64,000 bases of DNA from contig NZ_JACVCG010000005.1 of the NCBI RefSeq assembly GCF_016742135.1, forward strand, positions 58,924 through 122,923, in the 5' to 3' direction. Below the pieces are notes generated by a model, which made no database searches, had not been told where the DNA came from, and worked only from the letters and a program-made list of their open reading frames with translations. The translations under genes and the position numbers were made by a program. Position 1 is the first letter of the stretch; each line of letters begins with the position of its first letter. Shown in pieces: positions 8,032-41,892 of this stretch. This DNA comes from Brevundimonas sp. (GTDB taxonomy: Bacteria; Pseudomonadota; Alphaproteobacteria; Caulobacterales; Caulobacteraceae).

Positions 8032-8310
8032 ATGGCATCCGGCGAAACCCTCTATGAACGCGGCGTCCGCGCGGCCCATCGTGGCTACAAGCTGACCCTG
8101 TCGCCCCTGATCGGCCAGTCCTGCCGGTTCCTGCCGACCTGTTCGGACTATGCCCGCGACGCCCTGATCTCCCACGGGCCGGTGCGGGGCGGCTGGCTGA
8201 CCGTGCGACGCCTGTGCAAATGCCATCCTTTCGGAAGCTCGGGCTATGACCCGGTTCCGGCGCGGGAGCCCTCCCCTCCCGCGACCCAGACAACGAAGAC
8301 AGACAGATGA
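8032..8310 (+). CDS. yidD: Membrane protein insertion efficiency factor YidD
   Basis: [31 protein letters not shown]...[15 protein letters not shown]. Confidence 0.95.
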
Positions 8311-10232
8311 TCGACCTGAAATTCCCCGACGGTGCCGTCCGCCAGTTTCCGTCCTCGACGACGGGCCGGCAGGTGGCGGCCTCCATCTCGCCGTCGCTCG
8401 CCAAAAAGGCCGCCCTGGTCGAGATCAACGGTGAGCAGCGCGACCTCGACCGACCGCTCGAGACCGGTGGCGACTTCCGCCTGATCATGCGCGAGGACCC
8501 GGCGGCGCTGGAAACCATCCGGCACGATGCCGCCCATGTGCTGGCCCAGGCCGTGCAGGAGCTGTTCCCCGGCACTCAGGTGACCATAGGTCCGGCCATT
8601 GACGACGGATTCTATTACGATTTTCATCGTGAAGAGCCCTTCTCGACCGACGACTTCGCCGCCATCGAAAAACGCATGGCCGAGATCGTCGACCGCGACG
8701 AGAAACTGGTCCGCGAGGTCTGGGACCGCGACGAGGCCATCATCTATTTCGACAGCATCGGCGAGCGCTTCAAGGCCGAGCTGATCCGCGACCTGCCCGA
8801 GAATGAGGTCATTACCGTCTATCGCACGGGCAAGTGGCTGGACCTGTGCCGCGGCCCCCACTTCCCCTCGACGAAGTTCGTCGGCAAGGCCTTCAAGCTG
8901 ACCAAGCTGGCCGGGGCCTACTGGCGGGGCGACCACCGCAATCCGCAGCTGCAGCGCATCTACGCGACCGCCTGGGCCACCAGGGAAGATCTGGACGCCC
9001 ATCTGAAGCGTCTGGAAGAGGCCGAAAAGCGCGATCACCGCAAGCTGGGCCGCGCCATGGAGCTCTTCCACATGCAGGAAGAGGGCCGGGGCATGGTCTT
9101 CTGGCATCCCAAGGGCTGGGTGCTGTGGCAGGTGATCGAGGCCTATATGCGCCGGAGGCTGAGCGCCGCCGGCTATGTCGAGGTCAAGACGCCCCAGGTG
9201 CTGGACCGCAAATTCTGGGAGGCTTCGGGGCACTGGGACAAATACCGGCCCAATATGTTCGTCTGCGAGACGGTCGAGGGCGAGGAGCTCAGCCTCAAAC
9301 CCATGAACTGTCCCGGCCACGTGCAGATCTTTGATCAGGGCCTCCGGTCCTACCGCGAGCTGCCGCTGCGCATGGCCGAGTTCGGGGCCTGCCACCGCTA
9401 TGAGCCGTCGGGCGCCCTGCATGGGTTGATGCGGGTACGGGGCTTCGTCCAGGACGATGCCCACATCTTCTGCCGCGAGGACCAGATCGTCGAGGAGACG
9501 GCCCGTTTCATCGACCTGGCGCGCAGCGTCCACGCCGACCTCGGCATGGAGACCGCCTATATCAGCCTGGGCACCCGGCCCGAGATTCGTGCGGGTACGG
9601 ACGAGTTCTGGGACAAGGCCGAGGCGCAGATGGCGGAGGCCGCGCGCGCGGCGGGCACCGAGCCGATCGTGACCGAGGGCGACGGCGCCTTCTATGCGCC
9701 GAAGCTGGACTTTGTCGTCAAGGATGCCATCGGCCGCGAGTGGACCTGCGGCACCATCCAGCTGGACTATGTGCTGCCGGAGCGTCTGGGCGCGGAGTAT
9801 GTCGGTGAGGATGGGGCCAAGCACCGCCCGGTCATGCTGCACCGGGCCATCCTGGGCTCGTTCGAGCGATTCATCGGCATCATGATCGAGAACTATGCCG
9901 GGGCCTTCCCCCTGTGGCTGGCACCGGTCCAGGCCGTGGTCGCGACCATCGTCTCGGACGCCGACGACTATGCGAAACAGGTGGCCGCCAGGTTCAAGGC
10001 CGCCGGCTTGCGCGTCGAGACCGACCTGCGCAACGAGAAGGTCGGATACAAGGTGCGCGAACACTCCGTCGCCAAGGTTCCGGTCATCGCCGTGGTCGGC
10101 AAGAAGGAGGCCGAGGAGGGCAAGGTCGCCCTCCGCCGCCTCGGCTCCCAGGCCCAGGAGATCGTCACGGTCGAGGAGGCGATCCGCATCCTTTCCGAAG
10201 AAGCCACCCCGCCGGACCTCAAACGGGGATAG
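8307..10232 (+). CDS. thrS: Threonyl-tRNA synthetase
   Basis: Class II aaRS motifs [45 protein letters not shown]-like [24 protein letters not shown]-terminal TGS domain. Confidence 0.98.
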
Positions 10233-12472: not shown

Positions 12473-13870
12473 TTAAATATGTATCGCATGCCCCAGCGCG
12501 CGCAGGGACGCCTCGTGGAAGGCCTCGCCCAGCGTCGGGTGGACGTGGATGGTTCCGGCGACGTCTTCCAGTACCGCGCCCATTTCCATCATCTGGGCAA
12601 AGCTGTTCGACAGCTCCGACACATGCTGGCCGACGGCCTGGATGCCCAGAATCCGGTGGTCTGTCTTTGACGCGATCACGCGGACAAAGCCGCCGTCGTC
12701 GCCCGCCTCGATGGCCAGCGCCCGACCGATGGCCATGAAGGGGAAGACCGAGGTGATGACGTCATCGCGGCCCTCGACCTCCTGCGGACCCAGCCCGGCC
12801 GAGACAATCTCCGGCTCGGTAAAGCACACCGCCGCAATGGTCACAGGGTCGAAACGCTTGTCATGACCCGCAATGATTTCGGCCACGACCTCGCCCTGGG
12901 CCGAGCCCTTGTGCGCCAGCATGGGCTCGCCGGTCAGGTCGCCGACGGCCCAGACATTGCGCATCGAGGTGGCGCAGCGGTCGTCGATCTTCACGAACGG
13001 ACCGGCCATGGCCACGCCCATGTTTTCCAGACCCCAGCCCTTCGTGCGCGGGCGGCGACCGACGGTGACCAGCACCTTGTCGGCCTTGAGCGTCAGCGCC
13101 TTACCGTCCTTGTCGGTGACGTTCAGGGCGCCCTTCTCGAACGACCCGGCCTTCGCGCCCAGATGCAGTTCGACGCCGTGCTTCTCCAGCCATTTGGCGA
13201 CCGGATCGGTCAGGGCCTTGTCATAGAGCGGCAGCAGGCGGTCGGCCATTTCGACGATGGCCACCTCAGCCCCCAGCTTGCGATAGGCAATGCCCAGCTC
13301 CAGCCCGATATAGCCGCCGCCGACCACGACCAGCCTGTTCGGCACCTTGTCCAGCGCCAGCGCCTCGGTCGAGGAAATCACATCGCCGCCAAACGGCAGG
13401 AAGGGCAGTTCGACCGGCTCGGACCCGGTGGCCAGGATGACATGTTCGGCGGTGATGGCGATGTCGCCGTCATCGGTTTTGACGGTGCAGGTCTTGGCAT
13501 CCGAGAACTCGGCCCAGCCGTTGATGACCTTGACCTTCGCCTTCTTCAGCAGGGCCGCGACCCCGCCGTTCAGCTTACGGACAATGCCGTCCTTCCAGGC
13601 GACGGTGGCCGCAAGATCGATGGCCGGCTTCGACGCCGTAATGCCCAGCGTGCCACCGTCCGCCGCCCTGGCCACCGTCTCGAATTTCGAGGCCGCATGG
13701 ATGATCGCCTTGGACGGAATACAGCCGACGTTCAGGCAGGTGCCGCCGAGGCCATCGCCGCCATCCACCAGAATGGTGTCGAGACCCAGCTGGCCACAGC
13801 GGATCCCGGCCACATAGCCGCCGGTGCCGGCACCGATGATCAGGACTTTGGTTTTGAGGGTCTGGGTCAT
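12473..13870 (-). CDS. lpdA: Dihydrolipoyl dehydrogenase (E3)
   Basis: [75 protein letters not shown]. Confidence 0.97.
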
Positions 13871-14334
13871 TGATCGATGTCCTGACTGGCCTGGAACAAC
13901 GGCGTGAAACGCGACTCACCGACCCACGCCCGACTGAACAGGCGAGGGATGTCTCCGGGCTGCTGAATGACCAGCAGAACGTCCCCTGCGCGGTACGGCG
14001 CGGGATAGAGACAGAGCGCATGGGCATCCGCCTCGCGGGCTGGGTCCGGCACCTCGAGAACGATCGTCGCGTCTATCACCGCCGGGCCCGTGCGGTCCTC
14101 GTACGAGGACAGACGGGTGATGCGCAGACGGGCCTGTCTGAGGGGTATGCCGTGGACCTCGGCATCGGGAAGCGGCGTCAGGGACGTCACGCGGCCGACG
14201 AAGATGTCTGTTGTGCCGTCTGCAATCCAGCCTTCCCAATCGGCAGGCGGCGGTGGACTACAGGCGAAAGCGTTGAAGCCCGCCGTCAAGGACAGGCTGA
14301 GCGCCATGGCCAGAGGGGTGATCCAACGCGCCAT
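13867..14334 (-). CDS. Small secreted hypothetical protein between E2 and E3 genes (possibly TIMP/netrin-like fold)
   Basis: Signal peptide then [10 protein letters not shown]; 4-bp ATGA overlap with lpdA and tight junction with the E2 gene. Confidence 0.7.
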
Positions 14335-37749: not shown

Positions 37750-38046
37750 TCAGTCTCTCTCGCCCGAATCGTCTAACGGCCCCCGCGCCATATGCCGGAC
37801 GTGCAGGATCTCGACGGTGCCGTCCGCCAGCGAATAGATGACGCGCAAGGATGTTCGACTGACAGGCAGTTCCCGCGTCCCCTTCGTCTCGCCGACCCGG
37901 CCTTTATTGGGAAACTCAACCAATCCCGCGACGGCTTCGAGAACGCGGTCCTCGACCTCAATGGCGGCTTTGACACTGTCGCGGGCGATGAAGTCGACGT
38001 GGTCGCGAAGATCAGACTCCGCTCGCCTCGTCCAGATCAACCTCAT
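37750..38046 (-). CDS. RelE/ParE family toxin
   Basis: MRLIWTRRAESDLRDHVDFIARDS, FPNKGRVGETKGTRELPVSRTSLRVIYSLADGTVEILHVRHMAR; 4-bp overlap with upstream antitoxin gene. Confidence 0.9.
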   Translation of the reverse strand: MRLIWTRRAESDLRDHVDFIARDSVKAAIEVEDRVLEAVAGLVEFPNKGRVGETKGTRELPVSRTSLRVIYSLADGTVEILHVRHMARGPLDDSGERD

Positions 38047-38294
38047 TCAGCGGCGCGCCAGTCACTCCGGCGGGCTTTCAGGCGGGCGACAACGTGTTCG
38101 TGGCTGTGAACGCGACCCGCCGCGATGTCCGCCCGTGCCTCAGCCACTGCGGCCTCTATCTCGCGCCGCTCCGTCACGAACGCCTCGACGATCTGCGACA
38201 AGACCGTGCCCACGGAGACACCCCGCGACTCAGCCCATGCGTCGAGGTCCGCCTTGACGGCTTCATCCACGGGAACGGTCACATGAACGGTCAT
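38043..38294 (-). CDS. Ribbon-helix-helix type antitoxin
   Basis: MTVHVTVPVDEAVKADLDAWAESRGVSVGTVLSQIVEAFV; partner of the ParE-like toxin. Confidence 0.85.
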   Translation of the reverse strand: MTVHVTVPVDEAVKADLDAWAESRGVSVGTVLSQIVEAFVTERREIEAAVAEARADIAAGRVHSHEHVVARLKARRSDWRAAE

Positions 38295-38332: not shown

Positions 38333-39106
38333 TCACCCCGCGAACTTCGCCGCATCCTCGTCCGAGATATCCTCGTTGGAATAGACGCTCGAGACGTCGT
38401 CTTCGGCATCCAGCGCGTCCAGCAGCTTCATCAGCGTGCCGACCGCCTCGCCGGTGACCGGCACCAGCGACTGGGGCTTCCAGACGATGGCCGTCGACTT
38501 CGGATCGCCGAGGATCTTCGACATGGCCTCGGCCACCTCGTTCAGGTCCTCAAAGGCGGTCCAGATGGTGTGGCCCGGAGCCTCCTCATAGATGTCGGGC
38601 TTTTCCAGATCGCTCTCGACGTCCTGGGCGCCGGCCTCGATGGCGGCCTCCATGACCGCATCCTCGCTGCCCGCCTCGGCCGGATAGGTGATCTTGCCGA
38701 CCCGATCCCACATGAAGGCGACGGAATTCATTTCGCCCAGCGCCCCGCCGTTCTTCTTGAAGGCCGTGCCGATGTTCGAGGCGGCGCGGTTGCGGTTGTC
38801 GGTCAGGGCCTCGACGATGATGCCGACGCCGCCCGGGCCACGGCCCTCATAGCGGACCTCTTCCATCGTATCGACGTCGCCGGACGAGGCCTTGTTGATG
38901 GCCCTCTGGATCACATCCTTAGGCAGGCTTTCGGCCTTGGCATTGTTGACCGCCAGGCGCAGGCGCGGGTTCATGGCCGGGTCCGGCAAGCCCGACTTGG
39001 CCGCCACCGTAATGTCGCGCGACAGCTTGGAGAACAGCTTGGACCGCTGCGCATCGGCGCGGCCCTTGCGGTGCATGATGTTCTTGAATTTGGAGTGGCC
39101 GGCCAT
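38333..39106 (-). CDS. yebC: YebC/PmpR family DNA-binding regulatory protein
   Basis: [70 protein letters not shown]. Confidence 0.97.
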
Positions 39107-39226
39107 GGTCGTCGTCTCGGCAGTCTCAAGGGAAATGTGAGGCGCGCCGCATAGCCCGGCGCGGCACGCTTGTCACCCATGGCCGCGCGACGGGCCAGGG
39201 TGTGTACCCATAAACCGCCGATGCCA

Positions 39227-39282
39227 AGGGTCCGCTTGCTAGCGGCAAGTCAATGTCCGCTCCCGACCCATAGCTGCCCTAA
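39227..39282. repeat. GTCCGCT repeat copy A (divergent)
   Basis: GGGTCCGCTTGCTAGCGGCAAGTCAATGTCCGCTCCCGACCCATAGCTGCCCT. Confidence 0.6.
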
Positions 39283-39428
39283 GCTCAGGCCTTGCATCTT
39301 TGGGCCTCGTATCGGACTTTGTTGGGGTTAGAGAAGCTCGCCCCTAACGGGCGCACCGGTTGGCATGGCTGTGTTCGTCTCTTGGCCTCCGGATGTCCGC
39401 TTCCAGCTTGCGAGCCGGAGACGATCCA

Positions 39429-39902
39429 ATGACCCGGACCCTCACCACGAAAGCGATCATGTTTGGCGCGGTTGCGGCGGCGATTTTCATGACTGCCGAC
39501 CCTGCGCAGGCCTGCCGTCGACCGGCAAACTGGACTCCGCCGAGCGAGGCAGAACGGGAAGCCAGCTACCGGGAAATGATCCTGAGTGAAGCATCCACGG
39601 TCCAGATTGCCGAAGTGGTCGAGATTGACGCTGAGACCTATTGGCCGCCCCGCATCACCTTCCGCGCGGTCGAAGGGCTGAGTGGAAATGTGATCGAACA
39701 AGTGAGCACAGGAGAACTGGTGATCTCGTCTCGCTGTGACGGGATGCCAAATCAGGGTTGGTATGGCCCGCAAAACAGCGTCGGTGACACCGTGGTCCTT
39801 GTCTTGGGCAATCGTTTCGGTGAGTTCGGGATCGTCCATGCTGAACTGGTTGAAACCCCTAGAGCGATAGCACTCATATCCTTGGCGCGCGCCTTTCCCT
39901 GA
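39429..39902 (+). CDS. Secreted hypothetical protein (possibly TIMP/netrin-like fold)
   Basis: Signal peptide then ACRRPANW; C-terminal GDTVVLVLG. Confidence 0.7.
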   Translation: MTRTLTTKAIMFGAVAAAIFMTADPAQACRRPANWTPPSEAEREASYREMILSEASTVQIAEVVEIDAETYWPPRITFRAVEGLSGNVIEQVSTGELVISSRCDGMPNQGWYGPQNSVGDTVVLVLGNRFGEFGIVHAELVETPRAIALISLARAFP

Positions 39903-39911
39903 TGGTCAGAT

Positions 39912-39970
39912 CGGCACGTCCGCTTTCCACCCCCAAGCGACCGTCGGCTTCCGACCCATAGCGGACCTAG
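39912..39970. repeat. GTCCGCT repeat copy B
   Basis: CGGCACGTCCGCTTTCCACCCCCAAGCGACCGTCGGCTTCCGACCCATAGCGGACCTAG. Confidence 0.85.
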
Positions 39971-40365
39971 GTTTCGTTCCGAGCCGAGCTTTTAATCTGC
40001 TCAACACGTTCGAGTTCCAGTGCTTGGTCGCGCGTTCGCCATTCGGTCTTTTCGAACCAGTGGCCGCTTGGCCATATCACTCCTAGGGCAACGGCCTGTG
40101 CTTTTAGGGCGTCTAAGTCAGAGACCCTCCGGTAGGCCCAAAGCCTCCAGCGGGTCACCTGAACAGACCAGACTAGCCACGGCCATACGAGTGCCAAGAG
40201 GAATAGGAGCAGTGACCATGGACCTAGTCGGTCCAGAACCCCTGGGTTAGCCAAGATAACCCAGGCCAAGATTGCGAAGCCCAAGCCGTAAGCCGCAAGC
40301 ACCGACCCGTTGACCCACATGACACCCGTCCAAGCGGCCCGGCGCACGCTAATTCTTTCCTGCAT
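39967..40365 (-). CDS. Small hypothetical membrane protein
   Basis: 132 aa with two predicted TM segments (YGLGFAILAWVILA, LLLFLLALVWPWLVW). Confidence 0.7.
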   Translation of the reverse strand: MQERISVRRAAWTGVMWVNGSVLAAYGLGFAILAWVILANPGVLDRLGPWSLLLFLLALVWPWLVWSVQVTRWRLWAYRRVSDLDALKAQAVALGVIWPSGHWFEKTEWRTRDQALELERVEQIKSSARNET

Positions 40366-40394
40366 AGCTCGTTGACCTCCCGGACGCGGACCTT

Positions 40395-40456
40395 AGCGGC
40401 AACACGTCCGCTATCCACCTTTATGCGACTGGCTGCTTTCCACCCAAAGCGGACCG
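40395..40456. repeat. GTCCGCT repeat copy C
   Basis: AGCGGCAACACGTCCGCTATCCACCTTTATGCGACTGGCTGCTTTCCACCCAAAGCGGACCG. Confidence 0.85.
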
Positions 40457-40459
40457 AAA

Positions 40460-40879
40460 TCATCCCCGGTCAAGCAGGTTGCAAACCCATACATCGGTCT
40501 CGTGAACTTGGTCCTCAGGCCGCCGATACCATGCGTTGAAGCATGCGCGGTCGTCGCGCTTGAGCGCGGGGAATGCTCTTCCAAGGTCAAAGTCTGCCGT
40601 CCGCATCTCGGCGGGTTGGACAACAAAACACGAAGGCGGCGGAGCACTCGGGAGGCCATCTTTGAGAGGCAGTGAAACTCCCGAGCGTTGAATATCGAAC
40701 AACCTCGCACCGTTGTTGAGCGCAAAGCAGATGGGGTGTGATCCAGTGTTGAGAAAGCGCACCTGCAATACTGACGATGACGTCTCGGGCTGACTAATCG
40801 TGATCTCGAATGGAGGATCGCTGATATGCTGCGAGAGCCCTGCGTCGGACGAGATCGCCGCCAAAAAGATGCCAATCAT
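40460..40879 (-). CDS. Hypothetical protein
   Basis: 139 aa, low-GC codons, MIGIFLAAISSDAGLSQHISDPPFEITISQPETSSSVLQVRFLNTGSHPICFALNNGARLF. Confidence 0.65.
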   Translation of the reverse strand: MIGIFLAAISSDAGLSQHISDPPFEITISQPETSSSVLQVRFLNTGSHPICFALNNGARLFDIQRSGVSLPLKDGLPSAPPPSCFVVQPAEMRTADFDLGRAFPALKRDDRACFNAWYRRPEDQVHETDVWVCNLLDRG

Positions 40880-40906
40880 CTGATTGTTCTCCCACGGCTG
40901 AGCGTG

Positions 40907-41341
40907 TCACGGCAAGTGTCCGCTTTCCACCTCCAGGCCACGGTCGGCTCTCGACCCTGAGCTGACCCCGGCATTCGGCGGATCGATGGCCCTAGGTGGG
41001 GTAAATGATGCGGTCAAAAGGTCGATGTCACCGTAGCCGTCGAAATAGCTGTAGGCCTCGATCACTCCTGCGTAGCCGTCTTTGACATAGAGCATGAACT
41101 CCAAGGGGTAGGCGTCCGGCCCTACTTCAGAGCGAAGCCATCCTCCCGGGCTGACGGTGACGACTGCGGGTTGCAACGACTTGTCCACAGTGAACTCCGT
41201 GTAGAAACCGACCCCAGTGAACTCGCGGGCCGAAACCTCAGCGGTTCTCAACTGCTCAATGAGAGCACGGCTTTCATCCGGGCTGATCTGCTCTGCCAGA
41301 GCGACAGCAGCGGCCATCTCAAGCGCAGATAGCTGTTTCAT
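40907..41341 (-). CDS. Hypothetical protein whose C-terminal tail is encoded by repeat copy D
   Basis: 144 aa ORF; last ~20 codons overlap the repeat. Confidence 0.65.
   Translation of the reverse strand: MKQLSALEMAAAVALAEQISPDESRALIEQLRTAEVSAREFTGVGFYTEFTVDKSLQPAVVTVSPGGWLRSEVGPDAYPLEFMLYVKDGYAGVIEAYSYFDGYGDIDLLTASFTPPRAIDPPNAGVSSGSRADRGLEVESGHLP
40908..40968. repeat. GTCCGCT repeat copy D
   Basis: CACGGCAAGTGTCCGCTTTCCACCTCCAGGCCACGGTCGGCTCTCGACCCTGAGCTGACC. Confidence 0.85.
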
Positions 41342-41367
41342 TATGCTAGCCTAGCTCCCATGCGGCT

Positions 41368-41414
41368 GTCAGCCAACGTCCGCTTTCCACCCCTAGCGGA
41401 CATTCCGCGAGCCG
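41368..41414. repeat. GTCCGCT repeat copy E (short form)
   Basis: GTCAGCCAACGTCCGCTTTCCACCCCTAGCGGACATTCC; GTCCGCT...AGCGGAC hairpin. Confidence 0.85.
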
Positions 41415-41454
41415 CTTTTCGGAGGGCACCGCGATCCACCAATGCGAACCCGCC

Positions 41455-41892
41455 CTAGGCGCGAAGGCTCTCAAGGAACCCGCGCATCTTGTCGTCCACC
41501 GGCACCGGACGTTTGGTTTCACGGTCGACATAGACGTGGACGAAGTGGCCGACGGCGGCGGCCTCCTCCTCCTTGTTGCGGAACAGACCGATCTCATAGC
41601 GCACCGAACTGGTCCCGACATGGGCGACGCGAACCCCCGCCTGGATCTCGTCCGGAAAGGCGGTCGGGGCGAAGTAGCGACAGCCCGTCTCGGCCACCAG
41701 ACCGATCACCGACCCCTCATGGATGTCCAGCAGGCCGTTGACCACCAGCAGCCGGTTCACCGCCGTGTCGAACCACGAATAATAGACGACATTGTTGACG
41801 TGGCCGTAGACGTCATTGTCCATCCACCGCGTGGAAATGGCCTGGAACCGCTTGTAGTCCTCGCGCCGCGTCCGTTCGATCGTGCCTGTCAC
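41455..41892 (-). CDS. Acyl-CoA thioesterase (4HBT family)
   Basis: [30 protein letters not shown]...[33 protein letters not shown]. Confidence 0.93.

Follow-up and report, generated by a model that had tools for sequence, protein, structure and literature searches.

Probable gene-cassette arrays in Brevundimonas with two-module sites and a 208-residue tyrosine recombinase as candidate enzyme

Integrons are the textbook route for the capture and reshuffling of single genes. The arrays described here from Brevundimonas resemble them in having one-gene cassettes with one recombination site per cassette, in the many arrays that are orphans and the genes that are mostly orphan, in cassettes common to different species and, in some genomes, in a tyrosine recombinase encoded in cis with its own putative attachment site. 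However, the Brevundimonas recombinase is about 208 aa long, has no core-binding domain and is not IntI, its putative attachment site lies at the 3' end of its gene, the site consists of two duplex modules with GTCCGCT/AGCGGAC arms rather than a foldable attC, and the arrays show both gene orientations equally often and have a conserved distal end (LE). With Xer/dif, the system shares a 24–30 bp site with inverted arms of about 11–12 bp and a 6–8 bp core, and Xer proteins are the nearest matches to its recombinase in both sequence and fold, but the enzyme falls far under the XerC and XerD cut-offs and lacks their N-terminal domain; what we take to be a further difference is that the Brevundimonas sites are tandem pairs in one orientation with arms unrelated to dif. 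REP/BIME elements associated with RAYT transposases are likewise short, palindromic and intergenic, but no RAYT was found in Brevundimonas (nine genomes) and the sites bound single genes in one orientation. Invertases of the FimB/FimE type are, like the 208-aa enzyme, tyrosine recombinases of about 200 aa with little beyond the catalytic domain, but they invert one segment between inverted sites, whereas the Brevundimonas direct repeats bound many exchangeable genes. The system is not an integron by its defining features, nor is it REP/RAYT or Xer/dif. Integrons are in fact reported to be entirely absent from Alphaproteobacteria (PMC9668308).

The window, to which all positions below refer unless stated otherwise, is a 64-kb stretch (64,000 nucleotides) of a Brevundimonas genome. 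Between yebC and a thioesterase gene it carries an islet with the layout LE-(gene-site)n-RE and conserved ends, which we interpret, with a probability of roughly 75%, as a gene-cassette array made by site-specific recombination, the likely enzyme being the 208-aa tyrosine recombinase. Its features are:

38333–39106, minus strand: yebC, left flank of the hotspot (Pfam PF01709 and PF20772)
39202–39279, plus strand: LE (element A), with conserved TACCCATAAA..CGCCGATGC..GGGTCCGCTTGCaAGCGGCAAGTCAATGTCCGCT..CGACCCATAGC and an L module at its end
39270–39957, no strand: cassette 1, spanning the LE core to the B core
39360–39902, plus strand: cassette 1 ORF, with an in-frame ATG at 39429 and a signal-peptide-like N terminus; no Pfam family
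39918–39966, plus strand: internal site B, R module GTCCGCTTTCCACCCCCAAGCGAC + C + L module GTCGGCTTCCGACCCATAGCGGAC
39958–40445, no strand: cassette 2, with ORF 39967–40365 on the minus strand (132 aa, N-terminal half hydrophobic; no Pfam family)
40406–40454, plus strand: internal site C
40446–40957, no strand: cassette 3, with ORF 40460–40879 on the minus strand (139 aa; no Pfam family)
40918–40966, plus strand: internal site D, with a degenerate right arm, AGCTGAC
40958–41392, no strand: cassette 4, with ORF 40907–41341 on the minus strand (144 aa; C-terminal codons read through site D; no Pfam family)
41378–41454, plus strand: RE (element E), a single R module GTCCGCTTTCCACCCCTAGCGGAC (41378–41401) and a hairpin tail ATTCCGCGAGCC..GGGCACCGCGATC
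41455–41892, minus strand: thioesterase (4HBT_2), right flank of the hotspot (Pfam PF13279)

The boundaries of cassette 1 were placed from crossover mapping in other arrays, and a search of the islet DNA against plasmids gave no match. Beside yebC, on the minus strand at 37750–38294, a ParE-like toxin gene and a small antitoxin-like gene were recognized by eye from the translations.

The five related, same-orientation elements that an earlier note on this DNA had described are all present where it placed them (A, 39227–39282; B, 39915–39967; C, 40403–40455; D, 40915–40967; E, from 41375), and they exceed both shuffled and reversed controls: GTCCGCTNNCNACC at one mismatch matched nine times in the 64 kb against 2.6 expected, a count reached by none of 100 shuffles, with eight of the nine matches inside the islet on the plus strand, and GTCCGCTTTCCACC occurred in four copies in the whole genome, its reversed control in none. 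The elements are of three kinds, with A the left terminal element (LE), E the right terminal element (RE) and B, C and D internal sites. The two-module structure proposed for the longer copies applies to the internal sites, which are 49 nt long and consist of two 24-nt modules in tandem, R (GTCCGCTTTCCACCC..AGGCGAC) and then L (GTCsGCT..CGACCCATAGCGGAC). Site B was recovered by nhmmer at an E-value of about 1e-14 and scored 73.6 bits with model R2, among the best matches in the genus. LE forms the left end of each of the window genome's three islets and also occurs in two relatives (G029 and G016), and the RE model, R1, found three copies in the window genome (92–99 bits) and strong matches in G029, G016 and G085. 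The hairpin tail of RE stops at the thioesterase stop codon (41455) and folds with a z-score of −2.85 on the plus strand. Single strands of sites B, C and D, for which attC-like structure had been suspected, fold barely beyond their shuffles (z of −0.7 to −1.9), and an Rfam scan of the islet returned no family, its lone lncRNA match being attributable to chance. Array ends abut the stop codons of flanking genes both in the window (39190–39205 and 41450–41462) and in another locus, L091 (8565–8600 and 9470–9480 of that locus); these stop codons are often TAG within CTAG or TTAG and may mark the original insertion target.

Comparison of the yebC–thioesterase interval across strains, which the earlier note had singled out as informative, showed that the same genes do not stand there in all relatives. 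The yebC gene itself was present in 60 of the 61 genomes searched, and the distance from it to the orthologous thioesterase was 93 bp in G004, 0.9 kb in G016, 1.8 kb in G029 and 2.3 kb in the window genome. In G004 the thioesterase is the next gene after yebC and there is no array, G029 and G016 hold genes other than the window's between the same LE and RE ends, and none of the 20 relatives' yebC intervals searched contained any of the window's cassette genes. Two further islets of the window genome have the same LE and RE, one with two internal sites (contig C8) and one with no internal site (C5). By these sequence comparisons, the yebC locus is a hotspot whose gene content turns over between conserved ends.

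Such sites are widespread in the genus. Outside the close clade R1 gave mostly weak matches, and R2 was therefore used for genus counts, matching 102 of 131 Brevundimonas genomes with up to 28 sites per genome, clustered in one orientation at spacings of 400–700 bp. Among 150 aligned elements, the most conserved stretch was the CGACCC (97–100%) and GCGGAC (93–100%) of the L module. When the other 40 genera sampled from the order were searched with R2, a single weak match resulted, so the core sequence of Brevundimonas is largely genus-specific. Simple coding-potential scoring of cassette genes was uninformative, for which reason we used ORF occupancy: cassettes hold one ORF each, with a median occupancy of 0.91 versus 0.48 in shuffles (n = 112 cassettes) and values above 0.7 in 95% of cassettes versus 16% of shuffles. 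The placement of elements at the 3' ends of minus-strand genes, as the earlier note had it, is correct locally but does not hold as a rule, since gene orientation relative to the site was 61:51 across 112 cassettes from many arrays (p = 0.40); with orientation random, expression cannot hinge on one promoter at one end. Functionally, cassette ORFs are mostly orphan, and a scan of 80 cassette proteins matched 22 Pfam families, each in one protein only and including GNAT, SnoaL, NADAR, SUKH and Imm52. Cassette 3 of the window has a full-length homologue in G021, with 73% DNA identity and the same orientation to its site.

An all-against-all comparison used to find the same cassette in different arrays recovered near-identical cassettes (98–100%) in different arrays and species. 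In G012, two cassettes, one of 622 nt (99.7%) and one of 480 nt (98.5%), are each present in two arrays; G136 and G015 have 610-nt and 829-nt cassettes in common (100 and 99.8%), most of the latter also being present in G101 (99.7–100% across the three genomes); and a 607-nt cassette is common to two further genomes (99.3%). At the left edge of shared cassettes, identity begins in or slightly before the L core, and at the right edge it covers the full downstream R half and the junction and ends in the L core that follows or, where the cassette abuts RE, in the R core. The drop to background identity falls within about columns 33–43 of the site, near CGACCCA, and in R modules at CCACCC. In the G136/G015 comparison one left edge reaches further out, to the GTCCGCT arm, and one edge in G136 has an additional mismatch within the core. 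In close pairs the AWW following the core moves with the downstream cassette, and one copy in G012 lacks the 25-nt junction, as expected of R x L exchange. Only about nine edges from near-identical cassettes were informative, and the core is so conserved that a crossover can be placed no finer than about 6–10 nt. Exchange appears to map to this interval, a layout that would suit a recombinase overlap region between inverted arms, and breakpoints in the conserved CGACCC/CCACCC core are as expected of site-specific recombination. Cassettes thus seem to move as units. The gene-cassette layout that the earlier note had suggested is upheld by one ORF per unit, turnover between conserved ends, one array-free relative, cassettes shared between arrays and breakpoints inside the site.

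A search of array-rich genomes with PF00589 revealed short tyrosine recombinases beside arrays. These are about 208 aa long and have almost no N-terminal (core-binding) domain, yet they carry the complete R-K-H-x-x-R-H-Y catalytic set of the tyrosine recombinase superfamily in the Phage_integrase fold, with R59, K87, H156-x-x-R159, H182 and Y191 invariant in 20 homologues. They scored 60–71 bits against PF00589 (cut-off 27.1), versus 52–62 against XerC (cut-off 335) and 32–38 against XerD (cut-off 330). The predicted fold, a model of moderate quality (pLDDT 69, TM 0.48 to XerA), is that of the catalytic domain, and its top Foldseek matches, at moderate TM, were Xer, Cre and lambda Int. Downstream of the recombinase stop codon come a hairpin, an R module and then the array beyond. 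In 14 of 27 loci the best R-module match lies 46–54 nt past the stop codon, and most of the remaining 13 have a degenerate copy at that spacing. The match is on one strand, and in nearly every locus the upstream region and the opposite strand score lower. Of the recombinase copies, at least 13 are no more than about 5 kb away from a listed site; B. fluminis LA-55 (G138) is an example of an intact gene adjoining an array.

Copies of the gene, at least partial, occur in 44 of the 131 genus genomes, and the same search found none in the window genome, whose three arrays are thus orphans. Sites are present in 34 of the 44 recombinase-positive versus 68 of the 87 recombinase-negative genomes, and with no genome-level association the argument for the enzyme rests on position. 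Of the two kinds of cognate enzyme that the earlier note thought might lie elsewhere, then, a tyrosine recombinase does occur in the genus, beside arrays other than the window's, and a RAYT transposase was not found in the nine genomes searched. We posit that this 208-aa recombinase, which appears to be undescribed, is likely the mobilizing enzyme and would pair with the sites it adjoins. G012 also has a second recombinase gene copy with an in-frame TAG beside an array (L156 24–647; G012:C1:1704523–1705146), perhaps an array losing its enzyme.

Several other histories could produce repeats of this kind. Homologous recombination between dispersed 24–49 bp repeats might shuffle genes with the repeats themselves inert, and this would suit the excess of arrays over recombinases (102 versus 44 genomes) and a window genome without one. 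We nonetheless consider it unlikely, since near-identical cassettes break in the 6–10 nt core and not along the repeat, the repeats have inverted arms and a directional core, the recombinase gene carries the same module at near-fixed spacing, and the origin of LE-gene-RE units would go unexplained. Each gene might also be a small non-autonomous transposon with AGCGGAC and GTCCGCT as its terminal inverted repeats, the array having grown by tandem insertion at one spot. This is compatible with the random gene orientation and with the inverted repeat formed by the start (AWWGCGGAC) and the end (GTCCGCTT) of a cassette. However, shared segments take in the junction and all of the downstream L half and end at CGACCC rather than at the inverted repeat, and the shared cassettes that were found are positioned within arrays, at L and R modules, all of which renders such an origin quite improbable.

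Palindromic, intergenic elements might equally be transcription terminators or REP/BIME-type repeats spread by a RAYT transposase, but Y1_Tnp (PF01797) was absent from nine of nine genomes in which controls were detected, and directional arrays with one gene between sites and no Rfam family make this very improbable; RAYT spread, and with it the REP-mediated accretion that the earlier note had entertained, is rejected. The integron-like features, namely a unit of one gene and one imperfect palindrome, a crossover near one site end and mostly orphan ORFs, would fit a remnant in the form of an attC cluster without its integrase (CALIN). This we find scarcely credible: the consensus has no RYYYAAC/GTTRRRY boxes, its arms being GTCCGCT/AGCGGAC, the single-strand folds are barely beyond shuffles, gene orientation is unbiased with no 3' preference, the integron integrase model TIGR02249 scored above its cut-off in 1 of 131 genomes (G094) and not in the window genome, and the reported absence of integrons from Alphaproteobacteria noted above also stands against it. 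An integron integrase as mobilizer, membership of the sites in attC and the remnant reading as a whole thus fail on the defining features. The integrase in G094, on a short contig (G094:C20:202–1146; L172), is the only true integron integrase among the 131 genus genomes.

The basic site is a 24–30 bp module whose inverted arms, (AAT)GTCCGCT..AGCGGAC(ATT), enclose a directional core that reads CGACCC in L modules and CCACCC in R modules. A cassette runs from AWWGCGGAC through its gene to GTCCGCTTTCCACCC, followed by the 25-nt junction TCAGGCGACnGTCsGCTCTCGACCC, and within an array one cassette's R module and the following cassette's L module together make up the 49-nt two-module site. Under site-specific recombination by the 208-aa enzyme, crossover in the core between two L modules or between two R modules (L x L or R x R) would allow whole cassettes to be inserted, excised or moved, presumably via a circular form. 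In some relatives the recombinase is encoded in cis, the 3' end of its gene facing an R module that would be the attachment site (RE), and the simplest scheme, whose polarity we infer, would be R x R insertion of the circle at RE, after which the formerly last cassette would have both modules at its site and the newly added last one only a single module. Such insertion would account for single-module ends and two-module interiors, and L x L exchange for transfers between internal positions. The three orphan arrays of the window genome may be served in trans or be frozen, current activity of the system being presumed.

Homologues of the recombinase with 60–72% identity, annotated merely as recombinase/integrase or not at all, occur on plasmids of Bosea, Methylobacterium, Sinorhizobium, Cupriavidus, Thauera and Pantoea. 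Two Pantoea ananatis plasmids (L326 and L360) carry 7 and 9 modules, against 0.15 expected, that have these arms but different cores (TTCGCTCAT, TTGTGCCAG) and stand in one orientation, some of them as L–R pairs 42 nt apart. On the 7-module plasmid a recombinase relative lies beside the modules, and we count Pantoea as an independent case in favour of our preferred reading. A Klebsiella pneumoniae plasmid (L359) has same-armed modules with other cores, again in one orientation with some L–R pairs 42 nt apart, and 836 plasmid records contain sequences resembling such a pair (Klebsiella 357, Enterobacter 207, Pantoea 108). Close copies of the Pantoea recombinase gene are present in 857 of 5426 complete E. 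coli genomes; near the copy in E. coli T28R, modules of the tested form were not found. Nor were such modules found near several alphaproteobacterial relatives outside the genus (L285, L287 and L309), so either the site differs there or the recombinase–site link is not general. On a Roseomonas mucosa plasmid (L324), two near-identical copies of a RelE/ParE toxin–antitoxin pair plus recombinase (8148–9594 and 12618–14069 of that locus) flank a small gene block, as if the recombinase travels with the toxin–antitoxin pair. The colistin-resistance gene mcr-10.1 has been reported to adjoin a tyrosine recombinase gene named 'xerC' (PMC9431528).

We give even odds to a broader reading, in which cassette capture evolved independently a second time and these arrays belong to the resulting system, which would have a minimal tyrosine recombinase of its own, duplex sites of two modules and a range spanning Alphaproteobacteria and, with other cores, plasmids of Pantoea, Klebsiella and Enterobacter. 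On that reading the system would have gone unnoticed because annotation says only 'tyrosine-type recombinase/integrase'. Searches of the open-access literature found no description of the system, and the element sequence as a literature string returned primer-like matches only; subscription papers and preprints lay outside that search, and priority is uncertain. For Brevundimonas, about three quarters of genomes carry array sites seemingly built for an integron-like job with a different enzyme and site, and the arrays offer a pool of orphan genes with defined mobile boundaries together with a recombinase simple enough to test. More broadly, the system might account for the small integrase genes that are widespread in proteobacteria and, given matching modules on hundreds of enterobacterial plasmids, may bear on gene movement into clinical plasmids.
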